IMG/VR virus record: IMGVR_UViG_3300044614_000912
Coordinates: 1 to 64,000 of that record
Strand: one strand, 5' to 3'
DNA length: 64,000 bases
From: a virus
Shown here: positions 9,086-59,434 of the stretch, one piece after another
Position numbering within the stretch: position 1 is the stretch's first letter
Layout of the letters: the number at the start of each line of letters is the position of its first letter
Program-made: the position numbers and the translations under genes
The notes under the pieces: model-generated
Seen by the model: only the letters and a program-made list of their open reading frames with translations
Databases searched by the model: none
Told to the model about the DNA's origin: nothing

Positions 9086-9121
9086 TTAAGGATGAATTAC
9101 ACCATAATAAGGAGATTTAGC

Positions 9122-9472
9122 ATGAATAATCGAAATATAGCAAGCGTCTTTTTACTCTCCTTTCTTATATCATTAGCAACAGTTTTCTCATATTCTCACG
9201 GTCAAGAAGAAAATCGACCAACACTCATAGTATTTTCCGCAGATTGGTGTAATGCCTGCAAGGTGGCAAAAAACGATATAAACAATGATCCTAATTTATC
9301 TGAGGTAGTTAAGAAATATTTCGTCGTAACGGCGAATTACGATGTTGACAAAGACTTGGTGGAAGGGTACAATGTTGACAGGATACCAACTTTTGTGGTT
9401 ATCAACAAGTTAACGGTGACAAAAAAAGTTGGATATAATGGACCAAAAGACTTAATCAAATTTTTAAAATAA
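9122..9472 (+). CDS. Exported thioredoxin-like protein
   Basis: One hundred and sixteen residues from the ATG at 9122, preceded by AAGGAGA. An N-terminal signal peptide or anchor (SVFLLSFLISLATVFSYSHG) leads to a thioredoxin fold with active site WCNAC (about residue 43) and cis-proline loop RIPTFVV. It should act in the periplasm or membrane as a disulfide reductase or isomerase. Possible partners are the cysteine-containing exported proteins of this phage (trypsin-like protease, 2144 product), which is inference. A likely late-type promoter precedes it. Confidence 0.85.
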   Translation: MNNRNIASVFLLSFLISLATVFSYSHGQEENRPTLIVFSADWCNACKVAKNDINNDPNLSEVVKKYFVVTANYDVDKDLVEGYNVDRIPTFVVINKLTVTKKVGYNGPKDLIKFLK

Positions 9473-9545: not shown

Positions 9546-9722
9546 ATGAAATACAGACTTTTGTTTATTTGTCTATTATCAGTTTTATTTGTTTCATTAA
9601 CAATGAATGTGATTCATTCAGAATCGTTATCTGCGACAAAAGAAAGTTTAAGAATATCTGATATGGTACAAAACAAAGTAATTAATGATTTGTATAACAG
9701 AATAACCGAATTAGAAAACTAA
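9546..9722 (+). CDS. Small exported or membrane protein
   Basis: Fifty-eight residues: N-terminal hydrophobic segment (LLFICLLSVLFVSLTM) followed by a polar helix ending LYNRITELEN. TAAAGGAA precedes the ATG. The stop codon ends one base before the 5' end of the tmRNA, so mRNA and tmRNA probably share a primary transcript. Function unknown. Confidence 0.58.
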   Translation: MKYRLLFICLLSVLFVSLTMNVIHSESLSATKESLRISDMVQNKVINDLYNRITELEN

Positions 9723-10077
9723 GGGGGCGTAACGGTATCGATTGGATATAGAAAATTATATTAGCAAGTAGTGGTTGATCGACCGGCCACTTTAAAAGTC
9801 GATTAAACGCTTTAACTGGCGAAACTCAGTTAGCTCTCGCTGCCTAATAAAAACGGGCAGTGACGGATTGCGATTGCGAATGAGGGTAGCGATCAAAAAT
9901 CCGTTGTCAAATCCCTCTGCACTTACAATGCCCAGCGGGTTGTAGGTTAAGAGCAGCTGGTAAGACATAGCAAATCTTGTTTGCTCTATAGCTATGTTTA
10001 ACTCATGAGCAAAATAAACTTGTAGAAGATGTAATTAGACATATCGCAAGACAGGGGTTCGACTCCCCTCGCCTCCA
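9723..10077 (+). ncRNA. ssrA: Transfer-messenger RNA (tmRNA)
   Basis: Phage-encoded ribosome-rescue RNA. The 5' end GGGGGCG pairs with the 3' end CGCCTCC (one G-U pair), T arm GGGG-TTCGACT-CCCC lies 5' of it, and the usual GGTATCGA segment follows the acceptor strand. An internal reading frame at 9809-9850 encodes a tag ending LALAA followed by TAATAA, exactly as in bacterial tmRNAs. With GCT at 9809 as resume codon the tag is ALTGETQLALAA. About 355 bases is a normal size. CCA is not encoded (CTA follows the discriminator). It would tag stalled polypeptides for proteolysis and recycle ribosomes, using host SmpB. Confidence 0.92.
9809..9850 (+). other. tmRNA tag-peptide reading frame
   Basis: Twelve codons from GCT reading ALTGETQLALAA and a double stop TAATAA. 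The resume codon is inferred: the frame is fixed by the LALAA end, an alanine codon is the usual first tag codon, and it follows TTAAAC. The C-terminal LALAA is the ClpXP-type degradation signal of bacterial tags. Confidence 0.75.
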
Positions 10078-10082
10078 CTATC

Positions 10083-12501: not shown

Positions 12502-12849
12502 ATGTTTTGGCTATTTAAAAAACTTGGATATGGATATTCTACACGCTCTCCAAAATGGAGAGAGGTTAGGAAAAAACACCTAGAAAGTCAACCGTTTTGT
12601 CAAGCCTGTGGGCGAAAAGATGATTTGGAGGTTCATCATATAGAACCAGTACATAAAAATCCAGATAGAGAGCTTGATCCAAATAACTTGATTACCCTAT
12701 GCGGTAAAACGTGTCATCTAATATTTGGTCATTTAATGGATTATAAAAGCTGGAATGACGATGTAGTTTCTGACTGCGAATCTTATCTTTCAAAAATTCA
12801 GCAGAGGCCATACCATGAAAACAATCATAAAATTAGCTCTATTTTTTAG
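12502..12849 (+). CDS. HNH endonuclease
   Basis: One hundred and fifteen residues with the classical HNH core: CQACG (about residue 33), LEVHHIEPVH, DPNNLITLCGKTCH. The two cysteine pairs bind a structural zinc and HH provides the catalytic histidine. Small HNH proteins act as homing nucleases, restriction-like enzymes or packaging partners of terminase; no terminase is seen here, so a mobile or host-DNA-cutting role is possible. Its 3' end overlaps the start of the protease gene by 35 bases in another frame. Confidence 0.85.
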   Translation: MFWLFKKLGYGYSTRSPKWREVRKKHLESQPFCQACGRKDDLEVHHIEPVHKNPDRELDPNNLITLCGKTCHLIFGHLMDYKSWNDDVVSDCESYLSKIQQRPYHENNHKISSIF

Positions 12850-13609
12850 CTTATGTTTACCAGTGTGCTATTCCGGTACTATTGACCCAAATACTCCCGA
12901 CGAAAAATACGTTGAATTTGGCAAAGATTTCCACTATATTTATGAAATATGTGGAGTATATGAAAACGATGGATTATTTTGTGCATCCGCTGTCGCTATT
13001 GATCCCAATTGGGTTTTAACGGCGGCACATGTTGTTAAGGGTGCAAAGCTGTGCGTAGTTCATAAAGATGACAAAAAATATTTAGTTCATGTAATTATAC
13101 CACATAAAGATTTTAAAGAGAAAAATTATGGAGAAAACGATATAGCATTATGCTATATAGATGAAAAGCTAGATTTAAGTTTCTACCCCGAACTATACGA
13201 TAATGCCGATGAGGTTGGAAAAATATGCACCATATCTGGATATGGATTAACAGGAACGTTCAAAACTGGTAGTTCGTTTTCGGACGGCAAACGCAGAGCG
13301 GGTTCAAACAAAATAGAGTATATAGATAGAGATTTATTGATATGCACACCCTCTGTAGCAAATAAAACATCGCTAGAGTTTATCATTTGTCATGGAGATA
13401 GCGGTGGTGGCCTATTCATAGGCAATAAACTAGCGGGCATCAATTCATGCGTAATGGCTGATGATAAAAAACCAGATTCCACATATGGTGATGAATCTGG
13501 TCACACAAGAATAAGCAAATTTCTACCTTGGATCAGAGAAACAATGCAAAATAAGAGGCCAAACATAAAATCGGTTTTGGGGGTTGACAAATCATCGGAT
13601 ACGAAGTAG
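12815..13609 (+). CDS. Exported trypsin-like serine protease
   Basis: A 264-residue S1-family protease. A signal peptide (IIKLALFFSLCLPVCYSG) is followed by the triad: His in NWVLTAAHVVKG, Asp in GENDIALCYID, Ser in CHGDSGGGLFIG. Eight or so cysteines could form disulfides, fitting export to an oxidising compartment. It should cleave host envelope proteins or process exported phage proteins. Secreted trypsin homologues are unusual in phages. The promoter at 13584 lies in its 3' end. Confidence 0.9.
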   Translation: MKTIIKLALFFSLCLPVCYSGTIDPNTPDEKYVEFGKDFHYIYEICGVYENDGLFCASAVAIDPNWVLTAAHVVKGAKLCVVHKDDKKYLVHVIIPHKDFKEKNYGENDIALCYIDEKLDLSFYPELYDNADEVGKICTISGYGLTGTFKTGSSFSDGKRRAGSNKIEYIDRDLLICTPSVANKTSLEFIICHGDSGGGLFIGNKLAGINSCVMADDKKPDSTYGDESGHTRISKFLPWIRETMQNKRPNIKSVLGVDKSSDTK

Positions 13610-18226: not shown

Positions 18227-19327
18227 ATGAAAATTGTAAATGATACTAAGTTAGATTTTGATGATGTCTTACTCGTTCCACAGAGATCGCAAGCCGCCTC
18301 AAGGGTCAGTGTGTTGGTCGATAGACAGTTTTCTTTCTATCACTCTAATCGCGTTTGGAATGGCGTTCCAATCATGGCAGCTAATATGGACACAACCGGA
18401 ACGTTTGATATGGCAAAAGCTTTAAACAAGTTTAATATGGTGACTTGTTTGCATAAGCATTATAAGGCAGAGGATTATGCCATGCATCTTGTCGATCCTA
18501 ATAACTACTGGTATAGTATGGGAATTCAGAAAGAAGAAATCTCTAAACTAATAGAGGTTTCTGACCGCTTACAATCTTTCCCAAATCTTTGCATAGATGT
18601 TGCCAATGGTTATACAGATAATTTTGTACATTTCTGTAGGGGTATTAGAGAAATAGTTGGTAAGCACCCAATCATTATGGCTGGTAATGTATGCACACCA
18701 GAAATGGTGCAAGAATTGATTCTTCACGGTGGAGTAGATATTGTTAAGGTTGGAATTGGTCCCGGTTCAGCATGTACAACAAGATTAAAAACTGGCGTTG
18801 GATATCCACAACTTTCTGCAATTGCCGAATGTTCTCATGCCGCACACGGATTAAAAAGTGGAGACAAGCACCTAGGATTGATTTGTGCGGACGGTGGATG
18901 TAGAACACCATCAGATGTTGTAAAGGCATTTGCGGCTAACACAGACTTCGTTATGCTTGGTGGAATGTTGGCTGGCACAGAGCAATGCGAAGGAGAATGG
19001 GAATACGAATATCGAATGAAGAGTGGCGGTTGGCAACCAATCGATCCTCAGTACGATGACGTAGAAAAGCGAAAAACAAAGTTAACATTTTATGGAATGA
19101 GTTCTCACAAGGCTCAAGAAAAATACGGTGGTATTAAAAATTATAGAGCAAGCGAAGGCAGAGTAGTGACTGTGCCTTACAAGGGCGATGCTTCTATAAT
19201 ATTACAGGACATATTAGGTGGCATTAGAAGTGCTTGTGCTTATGTTGGTGCATCTTCTCTTAAAGATTTGCCAAAATGTGCAGAGTTCATAAAAGTAAAT
19301 CGCGTTCATTTTGATAGGAGTGTTTGA
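18227..19327 (+). CDS. guaC: GMP reductase
   Basis: Converts GMP to IMP with NADPH. The 366-residue protein follows E. coli GuaC closely: DFDDVLLVPQRS start, VPIMAANMDTTGTFDMA, the catalytic loop GIGPGSACTTRLKTGVGYPQ with the active cysteine, CADGGCRTPSDV, FVMLGGMLAGTE, FYGMSSHKAQEKYGG and GGIRSACAYVGA. No CBS domains, and the GuaC-type features fit better than IMP dehydrogenase. A purine-interconversion enzyme is unusual in a phage; it may rebalance G and A nucleotides or feed base modification. TGATG coupling to the methyltransferase. Confidence 0.93.
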   Translation: MKIVNDTKLDFDDVLLVPQRSQAASRVSVLVDRQFSFYHSNRVWNGVPIMAANMDTTGTFDMAKALNKFNMVTCLHKHYKAEDYAMHLVDPNNYWYSMGIQKEEISKLIEVSDRLQSFPNLCIDVANGYTDNFVHFCRGIREIVGKHPIIMAGNVCTPEMVQELILHGGVDIVKVGIGPGSACTTRLKTGVGYPQLSAIAECSHAAHGLKSGDKHLGLICADGGCRTPSDVVKAFAANTDFVMLGGMLAGTEQCEGEWEYEYRMKSGGWQPIDPQYDDVEKRKTKLTFYGMSSHKAQEKYGGIKNYRASEGRVVTVPYKGDASIILQDILGGIRSACAYVGASSLKDLPKCAEFIKVNRVHFDRSV

Positions 19328-55115: not shown

Positions 55116-56720
55116 ATGTCTTGGTTCCCTTTGAAAAATTACACACACTATAGTCTATTAAAGGGCTATTCTAAGCCCGACGAATTAGCTGCAAAATGCA
55201 AGGCTAACGGTTATAAGGCGTGTGGTATCTGTGATTATAAAACTATTTCTGGCTCTGTTGCTTTCTTTCAAGCTTGTAAAAAAGCTGGCATAAAGCCAAT
55301 CATAGGTTGCTCGTTCGATAACTTTGCTTTATTTGCTAAGAACAAATCTGGATGGCATGACTTAATAGAACTAGTATCATCACTAGATGATAATGATAAT
55401 GTGCCAGATGCTACACTCTCAAAAGTTCTTAAGAGAGATAATCTAATTAAGCTTTCTGACGCTCCTTCAAAGTCTATGCCTATTAGTTACTATACTAATA
55501 GAGAGGACGCAAAGCTACACAGAATATTGCTTTGTTCAGATATGAAAACAACCTTGCCGAAGGTTCTAAAAAGCATTAAGAGCGATAAAGCTGAACTATC
55601 CAAAGATCACGCCGATAAAGTAAAGTATTTTTTGAATGATGCTCTTTATGTCTTTAGTAATGATGAATCGAAAGATTTACCGCATGATGAATTAGATAAG
55701 ATTTATTCACAGTGTGAAGATTATGATATTCTTAATAAGCCAATGCTTCCTAAATTTGAGTGTCCCAACGGTCAAACAGAAGAAGATTATCTAAAAGAAC
55801 TTTGTAGGGATGGCTGGAAGAATCTATTGATGGCAAAGGGTAAGGTGTCAAAGGATGAAGATAAGCAGAAATATCTTGATAGATTCAAAGAAGAGTTTGA
55901 TGTTATTAAGGATGCTAATCTATTCGGATATTTCCTCATTGTGCGAGATATCATTAATTATGTGAACAATCAAGGCTGGCTTTCTGGTCCCGGTCGAGGA
56001 TCAGCGGCTGGGTGTTTAATCTCTTATCTTGTAGGTATTACCAAGATCGATCCGCTAGAATTTGACCTTCTGTTCGCAAGATTCTACAACGCTGGCAGAA
56101 ACAGTGCCGATCATATATCTCTACCAGATATTGATATGGACGTTCCCGGCAAACATAGGGATGCAATCATCGGATATATCAAAGATAAATACGGACATGA
56201 TCGCGTTAGCCAAATGTTAACGTTCGGAAGACTTCAAGGGAAGAGTGCCATTAAGGAAGTATTGCGAATTAATGAAGCCTGCTCTTTTGCAGAGATGAAT
56301 GCTATAAGTAACTGTATTCCAGATGAGGCTAAGATTTCTGATCAATTGGCAGAAATGGATGATGAAGACCGATCCATCATCAGATGGGCATTGATTAATA
56401 ATGCCGATGAACTACGAGACTTTTGCAGGATAAATGATAACGGAGAACTGGAAGGAGAATACGCAGACTATTTCGATCAAGCTATCAAGATAGAGGGTAC
56501 ATTTAAAACACAGGGTAAACATGCTGCTGGAGTAGTTATTTCAGCAGAACCATTGTGTAAAGTCTGCCCCATGGTAAAACAAAAGGGTTCTCACGAAAAG
56601 ATTGCCGGTTTAGAAATGACTGACCTAGAAGCACTAGGACATGTAAAATTCGATGTGCTAGGTATCAATTTGCTAGATAAGATTATGAAGATACAGGAGT
56701 TGCAGCATGATACAGTTTGA
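55116..56720 (+). CDS. DNA polymerase III alpha, N-terminal part (PHP, palm, thumb)
   Basis: First half of a split C-family polymerase, 534 residues. PHP-type start: THYSLLKGYSKPDELAAKCK, ICDYKTISGSVAFFQACKK, GIKPIIGC. Palm: WLSGPGRGSAAGCLISYLVGI and LPDIDMDV, which holds two catalytic aspartates, then FGRLQGKSAIKEVLRI. The third catalytic Asp is in KFDVLGINLLDKIMKIQEL, only about 20 residues before the stop, and the fingers are missing. They are encoded separately at 57863. The stop overlaps the next gene by 14 bases. Confidence 0.93.
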   Translation: MSWFPLKNYTHYSLLKGYSKPDELAAKCKANGYKACGICDYKTISGSVAFFQACKKAGIKPIIGCSFDNFALFAKNKSGWHDLIELVSSLDDNDNVPDATLSKVLKRDNLIKLSDAPSKSMPISYYTNREDAKLHRILLCSDMKTTLPKVLKSIKSDKAELSKDHADKVKYFLNDALYVFSNDESKDLPHDELDKIYSQCEDYDILNKPMLPKFECPNGQTEEDYLKELCRDGWKNLLMAKGKVSKDEDKQKYLDRFKEEFDVIKDANLFGYFLIVRDIINYVNNQGWLSGPGRGSAAGCLISYLVGITKIDPLEFDLLFARFYNAGRNSADHISLPDIDMDVPGKHRDAIIGYIKDKYGHDRVSQMLTFGRLQGKSAIKEVLRINEACSFAEMNAISNCIPDEAKISDQLAEMDDEDRSIIRWALINNADELRDFCRINDNGELEGEYADYFDQAIKIEGTFKTQGKHAAGVVISAEPLCKVCPMVKQKGSHEKIAGLEMTDLEALGHVKFDVLGINLLDKIMKIQELQHDTV

Positions 56721-57192
56721 AGTTACTCAAGACATAATGGATACGGCAATCTCTAAAGCCAAAGAAATGGGAGAGTTGAATAATTCTATCACTATGGGCG
56801 ATGGTAATCTGGCTGGATTTATTGGAGAAGAAATAGTGTGCAGATTTATCAAAGGAACCACAGAAAATACATATGATTATGACATAGTTCGTAACGGTCA
56901 AACATATGACGTTAAAACCAAAAGATGCACTAGTCCACCAAAGCCATTTTATGATTGTTCTGTAGCGGCTTTTAACGTAAAACAGAAGTGTGATAAATAC
57001 GTATTCGTGAGGGTACAGTATAAAAATAATACATACGGACCAGCATGGATTTTAGGATGCAAAGACAAGGCAGAGTATTTCAAGAAAGCGAAAAAGTTAA
57101 ACAAGGGAGAAGTTGATCCTAGCAATAATTTTATTGTAAAAGCTGATTGCTATAATATGAGTATTAACGAATTAGACGCACTGGAGGTTTGA
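56707..57192 (+). CDS. PD-(D/E)XK-fold nuclease-like protein inside the split polymerase
   Basis: One hundred and sixty-one residues. GNLAGFIGEEIVCRFI (Glu) and YDYDIVRNGQTYDVKTKR (D-x-n-D-x-K) give the restriction-endonuclease-type core; FNVKQKCDKYVFVRV follows as the third strand. It sits between the two halves of dnaE, so it may derive from a homing nuclease, but it now overlaps the upstream gene tightly and abuts the exonuclease. Could also process DNA at the fork. Confidence 0.72.
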   Translation: MIQFEVTQDIMDTAISKAKEMGELNNSITMGDGNLAGFIGEEIVCRFIKGTTENTYDYDIVRNGQTYDVKTKRCTSPPKPFYDCSVAAFNVKQKCDKYVFVRVQYKNNTYGPAWILGCKDKAEYFKKAKKLNKGEVDPSNNFIVKADCYNMSINELDALEV

Positions 57193-57873
57193 ATGGCTAA
57201 TAGAGATTTTATTATATTCGATTTTGAAACAGGTTCAAGGAATCCGCATAGAACGCAACCAACACAAATTGCTGCATTAGCATTGGATGGTAGGAATCTA
57301 GCGGTAAAGGGGCAATTCAACAGTGAGATTCAGCCTATATTTGACGATGAAAAAGCTATTTCTCTTGGTCTTGACCCGATAGAAGATGAGGCATTAAAGA
57401 TCACCAACAAAACTAGGGATCAATTATCATCAGCACCATCGCTAAAGTCGGTTTGGTCTAAGTTCACAAAGTTTGTTTCACAATACAATTGGAAAGGCGA
57501 TGCGTTCTTTAATCCTATACCGGTTGGTTTCAACATCATAGGATTCGACTTAATTATCATTGATAGGCTGTGTAAAGAATATGGCCCATATGATGATGAA
57601 CGTAGACAGCAAAAATTATTTAGCAAGGTCTATAAGATTGATATTATGGACAATATATTTACGTGGACAGAAAGTGATCCATCTGTTAGGTCTATCAGCA
57701 TGGACTCATTAAGAGAACGAATGGGACTTAGTAGTGATGGGGCACACGACGCTCTACAAGACGTTAAAGATGAGGCAAATATATTCATCAAACTACTAAA
57801 GACGCACAGAGCGGTATATCAAAACGTTAATTTTGACAAAGCATTTGCAAGCGGGGAATTGTATGTTAAATGA
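57193..57873 (+). CDS. DnaQ-like DEDDh 3'-5' exonuclease
   Basis: Proofreading-type exonuclease, 226 residues. FIIFDFETGSR (Exo I, D and E), PVGFNIIGFDLIIIDRL (Exo II, Asp) and DGAHDALQDVKDEANIF (Exo III, H-x4-D) are all present, so it should be active. Encoded between the two polymerase pieces, it is the obvious epsilon-like partner. ATG immediately after the nuclease stop; its end overlaps the dnaE-C start by 11 bases. Confidence 0.92.
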   Translation: MANRDFIIFDFETGSRNPHRTQPTQIAALALDGRNLAVKGQFNSEIQPIFDDEKAISLGLDPIEDEALKITNKTRDQLSSAPSLKSVWSKFTKFVSQYNWKGDAFFNPIPVGFNIIGFDLIIIDRLCKEYGPYDDERRQQKLFSKVYKIDIMDNIFTWTESDPSVRSISMDSLRERMGLSSDGAHDALQDVKDEANIFIKLLKTHRAVYQNVNFDKAFASGELYVK

Positions 57874-59434
57874 TTTGGATTATAACGATAAGGCCACTTG
57901 GCAACTATTCGCAGAGGGTAAAACTAAGGGTATTTTCCAACTAGAAAGTAATCTTGGTAAATCTTGGGCTAAGAAGTTAGCACCAACCAATATCGAAGAA
58001 TTGTCGGCGCTTATCGCTATTATCCGACCGGGAACGCTCAAGGCTTATGTCGATGGTAAAAGCATGACGCAACACTATGTTGATAGAAAGCACGGGCGAG
58101 AAGAAGTCACGTATCTTCATCCCGCCCTAGAAGACGTTCTCAAAACAACGTATGGCGTTCTTGTGTATCAAGAACAGTCCATGCGTATAGCAGAAAAGAT
58201 TGCCGGATTTAATCTTCAAGAGGCAGACGTTCTTCGTAAAGCTATTGGCAAGAAAAAGGCTGATCTTATGAATGAAGTTAAAAAGTCTTTTATTGCTGGG
58301 GCTGAACGTGTAGGCATAGTCACCAAGGAAGAGGCAGAGCAAATATTCGGATGGATTGAGAAATCGTCTAGATATGCTTTCAACAAGTCACATAGCGTTT
58401 CATATGCGGTTTGTTCATATTGGAGTGCATACTTTAAGGCGCATAATACTTTAGAATTCTTTTTGTCATATCTCTATTATGCTAATGAAAAGCAAGACCC
58501 TCATCAAGAAATATATGAGCTAATATCTGAGGCAAAACTATTTGACATTCAAGTTAAGACCCCAAGCTTGGCTAATTTTGATACCAAGTTCAATATTCAA
58601 AAGAACAAGATATTTTTTGGAATTAAGGATATCAAATCTCTTACCGGTAAAACGGGCGATAAATTGATAGAGGCTATAGGAACATCAGAAAAAGAACTTG
58701 GCAAGAATATTACTAAGTTTACATGGTTAGAAATTCTGCTATTTCTTAGTCCTTTAGTTAGTTCAACAGCGTTTAAGGCACTGGCTTCCATAGGATTCTT
58801 TAGGGGTTTTGCGGATAAAATTACTAGAAATAAAGCCCTATATGACTATGATATTTTTAAGACCTTAACCAAGGCAGAACAAACGTGGATTCAAACCCAT
58901 TACAAAGATAAGAACTGGGGTTCATTTATTGAATGCTTGAAAGACCTAGCACCAACTAAGAAAGAGGGCGGTGGTACAAGCAAAGTTGATAGAAAACAAG
59001 CTATAGAAAATGAAATTCAGCTTTTAATCAATCCGCCATATGACCTAGAAGACGATCCAGCATGGGTTATAGATCAAGAAGTCAAATTCTTAGGTTGTCC
59101 AGTTAGTATGACAAAAGTTGAAACATCAGATACATCCGCTGCTAATACCACATGTAAAGAAATTGTGAATGGTAAAAGGGGCAAAGACTTATGTATAGTA
59201 GCAAACGTACAGCGTGTTTCGGAATACAAAATAACCAAGGGTGAATCCAAGGGGCAAATGATGGCCTTTTTAACAATAGAGGACGATACTTGTATGCTAG
59301 ATAGCGTAATTGTTTTCCCTAAAGTAAAAGAAAAGTACAAGTATGTCTTATATGAAGGTAATAATTTGATATTTTGTGGCTCAGTTGGTGAAAATGATAA
59401 TTCGTTTATAGTAAACCAAATACATGAAGTTTGA
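57863..59434 (+). CDS. DNA polymerase III alpha, C-terminal part (fingers, OB)
   Basis: Second half of the split polymerase, 523 residues from the ATG at 57863 (MLNDLDYNDKATWQLFAEGK) after GGGGAA. Fingers motifs: GIFQLESNLGKSWAKKL, IAIIRPGTLKAYVDG, TTYGVLVYQEQSMRIAEKIAGF, VLRKAIGKKKADLM and SSRYAFNKSHSVSYAV. The C-terminus (LCIVANVQRVSEYKITKGES, TIEDDTCMLDSVIVFP) is an OB fold. It begins where the N-terminal piece ends; no intein sequence is seen at either end. Confidence 0.93.
   Translation: MLNDLDYNDKATWQLFAEGKTKGIFQLESNLGKSWAKKLAPTNIEELSALIAIIRPGTLKAYVDGKSMTQHYVDRKHGREEVTYLHPALEDVLKTTYGVLVYQEQSMRIAEKIAGFNLQEADVLRKAIGKKKADLMNEVKKSFIAGAERVGIVTKEEAEQIFGWIEKSSRYAFNKSHSVSYAVCSYWSAYFKAHNTLEFFLSYLYYANEKQDPHQEIYELISEAKLFDIQVKTPSLANFDTKFNIQKNKIFFGIKDIKSLTGKTGDKLIEAIGTSEKELGKNITKFTWLEILLFLSPLVSSTAFKALASIGFFRGFADKITRNKALYDYDIFKTLTKAEQTWIQTHYKDKNWGSFIECLKDLAPTKKEGGGTSKVDRKQAIENEIQLLINPPYDLEDDPAWVIDQEVKFLGCPVSMTKVETSDTSAANTTCKEIVNGKRGKDLCIVANVQRVSEYKITKGESKGQMMAFLTIEDDTCMLDSVIVFPKVKEKYKYVLYEGNNLIFCGSVGENDNSFIVNQIHEV

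Follow-up and report, generated by a model that had tools for sequence, protein, structure and literature searches.

The window, that is, the whole stretch of 64,000 nucleotides that was analysed, is the first 64 kb of a 132,557-base IMG/VR virus record and not of a bacterial chromosome, and it carries at 9723-10077 on the plus strand a complete canonical one-piece tmRNA (ssrA) gene with a mature length of 355 nt without CCA. Using cmscan, RF00023 was matched at 9723-10080 over the full model (1-374) with 121.8 bits and E=4.6e-47, which exceeds the curated cut-off of 47 bits, and ARAGORN called the gene at 9723-10078 with the tag GETQLALAA followed by two stops. The ends given by both programs include extra trailing bases; the exact gene runs from G1 to the discriminator A73. 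An earlier note that was made from the letters alone had placed a 355-base tmRNA here, and its boundaries proved exact to the base. The parts that it had described were also found: the matched tRNA-like ends form a 7-bp acceptor stem (GGGGGCG/CGCCUCC) with G3-U70, the TTCGACT T loop is present in the sequence, the internal frame that was said to end in LALAA-TAATAA reads GETQLALAA and then TAATAA, and the five accompanying tRNAs are Leu-TAA, Arg-TCT, Ser-ACT, Gly-TCC and Tyr-GTA. The match is collinear with the model; the permuted, two-piece order, in which the 3' domain precedes the 5' domain, was not found. The parts of the gene and the features before it are:

9092..9472, plus strand: thioredoxin-like gene (PF00085, E=1.8e-9), which stands directly before the tmRNA in several relatives
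9546..9722, plus strand: ORF of 58 aa with AAAGGA before it; its TAA ends at the base before tmRNA G1
9723..9729, plus strand: acceptor stem, 5' strand GGGGGCG, 7/7 pairs with 10070-10076; carries G3 of the G3-U70 alanine identity pair
9745..9768, plus strand: helix 2, 5' side (9745-9749, 9754-9761 and 9764-9768), with its partner at 10019-10045
9770..9806, plus strand: pseudoknot 1, with H3 (9770-9774/9787-9791) and H4 (9775-9783/9798-9806)
9818..9850, plus strand: tag reading frame GGC GAA ACT CAG TTA GCT CTC GCT GCC TAA TAA (GETQLALAA and two stops)
9837..9863, plus strand: helix 5, which overlaps the tag end; 97.7% of cells paired
9864..9917, plus strand: pseudoknot 2 (H6a, H6b and H7); H6a and H7 100% paired, with double changes
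9922..9960, plus strand: pseudoknot 3 (H8 and H9), with covariation
9963..10013, plus strand: pseudoknot 4 (H10 and H11), with covariation
10053..10069, plus strand: T arm AGGGG-TTCGACT-CCCCT, with double changes at all five pairs across homologues
10070..10077, plus strand: acceptor stem, 3' strand CGCCUCC, and discriminator A73

The genome letters after A73 are CTA, and CCA is not encoded for the tmRNA or for any of the five tRNA genes. Therefore, the CCA of the tmRNA must be added post-transcriptionally and its maturation would depend on host enzymes. The tRNA-Ser at 2402-2487 has the anticodon ACT, whose A34 is unusual for a serine tRNA. PHROGs matches in the record comprise RIIA, RIIB, both subunits of ribonucleotide reductase, a DnaB-like helicase, a DnaE-type DNA polymerase, an ATP-dependent DNA ligase and thymidylate synthase, and further along, the terminase large subunit and a weak match to the major head protein. 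The integrase families Phage_integrase (PF00589) and Recombinase (PF07508) had no match in the 132,557 bases. SmpB was also not found in the record, which is possibly incomplete, while the same search was positive in 10 of 14 control genomes; rescue would thus be expected to use the SmpB, AlaRS and proteases of the host.

Selection on the RNA

The four-pseudoknot structure was drawn by hand on the window sequence and its 97 pairs were scored on 48 distinct phage homologues; drawing the structure on one of the aligned sequences introduces a somewhat favourable bias, but the margin was very large. Among the base-pair cells, 95.2% were paired compared to 82.1% after shuffling and 36-48% after sliding, and changes on both sides were found at 74 of the 97 pairs compared to 41 in the shuffled data. 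None of 500 shuffles reached the observed value on any measure. The pseudoknot helices were each 86-100% paired and all had double changes (in pseudoknot 1, H3 was paired in 100% and H4 in 98.4% of the cells). The gene that the earlier note had proposed therefore also holds as a structure, since RF00023 fits its full length and all four pseudoknots covary.

The features on which charging and tagging depend were retained even where the surrounding sequence changed. G3-U70 was kept in all 48 aligned homologues and across nine acceptor stems (GGGGGCG, GGGTGCG, GGGCGAT, GGGCGAG, GGGGGTG, GGGGGTA, GGGCTGG, GGGGACG and GGGCCGA) in 68 distinct full-length phage genes that came from a profile search, the ends of which were fitted for pairing with no extra weight on the G-U pair. 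Left out of this set as a tenth, misfit row was a different, short tmRNA of about 264 nt on another viral contig (L093:3310-3573; RF00023 71.5 bits), which has the predicted tag AKTFAQAA. Among the homologues, codons 6-9 of the tag (ALAA) show synonymous changes only, while codons 2-3 change the amino acid. The same was seen in relatives that were recruited through their DNA ligase, without regard to tmRNA: all 36 distinct full-length genes had G3-U70 and 7/7 acceptor pairs, distributed over eight acceptor stems, two of which were absent from the first set, and all their tags end in ALAA behind variable fronts (GTNQ, GETQ, GEVT, GEVST, GNTQ, GKTQ, GVNQ, GANQ, GKTS and others). Taken from the alignments, these patterns support the view that selection maintains the tmRNA as an RNA that can be charged and can tag.

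A minority of the homologues have T loops that depart from TTCGANT (GGCAGAA, GGCAGTA and TGCAAAT in L012, L022, L030, L054 and L049), although their T stems are still paired. ARAGORN misses some homologues with variant tags or T loops; L008, L012 and L015, which appeared to be tmRNA-less in the ARAGORN results, were ruled out as such because Rfam detects a tmRNA in them. In another relative (L311:7696-8676), about 590 bases break up the gene within the pseudoknot 1 linker; they encode an Endonuclease VII-type protein (PF02945, E=2.2e-19) and are bounded by a perfect 17-base inverted repeat (TTTGGTGTTTCTTTAAA/TTTAAAGAAACACCAAA). The pseudoknot and tag sequences flanking the insert look intact, and it could be a mobile endonuclease gene that is tolerated in a loop.

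Distribution among related phages and known tmRNAs

An exact 24-mer spanning the resume codon was found in 52 viral contigs, the degenerate tag in 73 and a 17-mer from pseudoknot 1 in 64, a few of which were unrelated sequence. Genes homologous to those of the window genome were found at 105 of 106 tmRNA-bearing loci. Since the 24-mer and tag scans favour genes with this tag, prevalence was measured on loci for which the DNA ligase served as bait. Its relatives were found in 372 contig stretches, 80 loci were kept, and the 39 loci that extend 4 kb or more upstream of the ligase were regarded as informative. The tmRNA was present in 36 of these 39, usually 1-4 kb before the ligase. Three lack it. 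One of them, L253, is closely related to the window phage; there the tmRNA follows the ligase at a distance of about 8.5 kb, a position that falls beyond the visible stretch of L253. The other two, L259 and L265, have wide flanks and no tmRNA in the stretch seen. Judging from these loci, the tmRNA is nearly universal in this uncultured phage clade. The rarity of tmRNA genes in phages that the earlier note had emphasised thus stands for phages at large, in which 402 of 18,146 genomes, about 2.3%, carry ssrA (PMC9004378), but not for the present clade.

Phage tmRNAs are already known, and the present gene adds one from an uncultured clade. Complete ssrA genes, in some cases with many tRNA genes, are also described for the mycobacteriophages Bxz1, Cali and Wildcat, Bacillus phage G (ssrA in mycobacteriophages and phage G, PMC4131195) and the Streptomyces BE2 phages; the present phage belongs to a different lineage. 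Bradyrhizobium phages carry ssrA as well (PMC12656738), and in huge phages, both ssrA and SmpB were found (PMC7162821). The methylophage Melnitz and pelagiphages (PMC9004378) share with the present phage an aquatic phage ssrA inside a phage operon, but the tmRNA of Melnitz is permuted, two-piece and riboswitch-linked, whereas the present one is one-piece and no riboswitch was found in the Rfam scan of the window. A search with the whole tmRNA against 50,697 phage records gave no match over 80% of its length. Among cultured phages, blastn with the tmRNA region and tblastn with the tail, RIIA, polymerase, terminase, head and ligase proteins gave either no match or only distant relatives, all of them below 60% identity for most of their length.

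With the one-piece bacterial tmRNA of RF00023, the gene shares the position of the tag frame, G3-U70, the T arm, four pseudoknots in the standard order and an ALAA-ended tag. It differs in being virus-borne, in not encoding CCA and in its tag, the pattern of which was found in only one genome among 84,980 from prokaryotes. This is a Chloroflexota MAG, and the match in it is a real chromosomal tmRNA (L068/L136) that has the identical tag GETQLALAA and is similar around the tag and helix 5; unlike the phage gene, it is chromosomal, GC-rich, encodes CCA and lies near an SmpB-like ORF. Other Chloroflexota tags are alike (GDTQLALAA, GNKQLALAA and GEPQLALAA), while the Chloroflexota tmRNAs that are closest by profile score carry a different tag. 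A Chloroflexota host is not claimed from the tag, as only Chloroflexota were sampled and the phage tmRNA genes form their own clade (support 0.87). No host was derived from ThyX either: it shares 70-73% identity with cyanophage proteins, but this gene is often exchanged.

Phage tmRNAs are usually treated as occasional curiosities, but nearly every member of this clade that was examined has kept the gene. Together with the selection on charging and tagging, this near-universal retention suggests that these infections have a constant need for rescue or for the degron tag and that the gene is not a passenger. Neither the clade-wide retention nor the stop-codon junction that is considered below was found described in the limited literature that was searched.

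Proposed role and the stop-codon junction

Trans-translation is well established and forms the basis for the steps that are proposed here. We consider it probable, at roughly 0.8, that the phage encodes a working, chargeable one-piece tmRNA that performs ordinary trans-translation with host partners, because of the Rfam and ARAGORN matches, the covariation, the retention of G3-U70 and ALAA, the clade-wide presence and the absence of an integrase match. The tmRNA would be excised from a polycistronic phage transcript with RNase P making its 5' end, receive CCA, be alanylated by the host AlaRS and bind host SmpB and EF-Tu. It would then enter ribosomes that have stalled on broken mRNAs during infection and free them, appending AGETQLALAA, in which the leading Ala comes from the charged tmRNA and the ALAA end would be read as a degron by host ClpXP-type proteases. 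Overall, this would add rescue capacity and keep ribosomes free for phage translation. The candidate needs, which sequence does not separate, are stalling due to mRNA decay, as the earlier note had suggested, anticodon nucleases, an exhausted host tmRNA and amino-acid recycling. The growth of lambda immP22 in E. coli requires tmRNA, as cited in PMC12656738.

The same chemistry could also serve directed proteolysis, in which host proteins are given the phage tag and their amino acids are recycled, as was proposed for Melnitz (PMC9004378). The retention of ALAA while the front of the tag drifts is consistent with such a role, but since it shares its chemistry with rescue, sequence cannot tell the two apart, and no phage protease adaptor was identified; we regard it as rather unlikely.

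Another reading is raised by the position of the gene. Of 94 distinct contexts, 49 have an upstream ORF (minimum length 40 codons) whose stop codon finishes no more than 1 nt away from the tmRNA start: in 21 the two abut, in 22 G1 doubles as the G of TAG and in six the stop falls one base short. Random positions give the same junction in 1.5%, and the tRNAs in the same loci, many of which are one or two genes seen repeatedly, have it in 2 of 90 contexts. ORFs homologous to the 58-aa ORF of the window are placed alike in other phages, and the upstream ORFs span several unrelated families, including the thioredoxin-like gene (12/13) and an RLxELEN-type ORF (10/11). No terminator-like site was found and promoter-like matches were no more frequent than in shuffles, and hence the tmRNA is most likely cut out of a polycistronic RNA. 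RNase P is the known enzyme of tmRNA 5' processing (PMC3985003); if it cuts at G1, the upstream message would stop right after its stop codon or lack the last base of that codon.

The tmRNA might be wired to the preceding gene, its maturation leaving an end-stop or non-stop message upstream, so that, by analogy with E. coli ArfA, the upstream product would itself be a tmRNA substrate that is held low when rescue is plentiful. The frequency of the junction and the diversity of the ORFs favour this, but tight packing is general in this phage, in which many protein genes overlap, so that the junction may reflect gene packing and only compaction; moreover, the TAA in the window stays intact after the cut at G1, and 45 of the 94 contexts are not fused. 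We consider such wiring, which could operate on top of ordinary rescue, improbable. If true, every tmRNA produced would come with an upstream mRNA of the non-stop or end-stop kind, and the infection would have an inbuilt feedback like that of ArfA, by which rescue capacity is sensed; the recurrent junction is a bench-testable hint of a new kind of rescue-linked regulation.

It is very unlikely that the RNA acts as an inhibitor or decoy, i.e., that it titrates SmpB or replaces the host tmRNA and so redirects host rescue. This idea was discussed for the tmRNA of phage DS6A, which has only the tRNA-like domain, and a molecule of this kind is inhibitory to tmRNA, possibly because it titrates SmpB (Mao et al. 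2009, as cited in PMC4131195). The phage record without SmpB would fit; however, a decoy needs neither the ALAA codons nor G3-U70, both of which were kept in 36/36 ligase-recruited homologues. Finally, although tmRNA genes serve as phage integration sites (PMC3203893) and ssrA fragments occur in prophages (PMC9004378), a remnant, be it a piece of host ssrA from an attachment site or transduction or a decaying passenger, is scarcely credible, as the gene is of full length with an intact tag and is no partial copy beside an integrase, every helix has compensatory changes, which refutes it in practice, G3-U70 was kept in all 36 relatives recruited without regard to tmRNA, no integrase family matched and the gene is retained across the clade. 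The suggestion of the earlier note that the tmRNA is phage-borne and not a prophage-like host copy agrees with its place in a virus record and its retention in many related phage contigs.

The preferred reading thus remains ordinary trans-translation with the help of host partners. Among other features that were seen, a stretch of about 10 kb at L003:1-10742 (about 82.5-93.2 kb of the genome), with large genes in blocks on both sides, has no complete ORF of at least 100 aa on either strand; it may hold one or more very long or open-ended genes that are truncated by the ends of the piece, or else numerous small genes. The DnaE-like DNA polymerase is split over two ORFs at 55116-59434 of the window, which cover positions 246-613 and 623-1055 of PHROG 405 with two small ORFs between them, and an intron, intein or homing endonuclease insertion is possible. 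At 12815-13609 and 18227-19327, the window encodes a trypsin-like protease (PF00089) and an IMP dehydrogenase/GMP reductase (PF00478), both of which are conserved in relatives.
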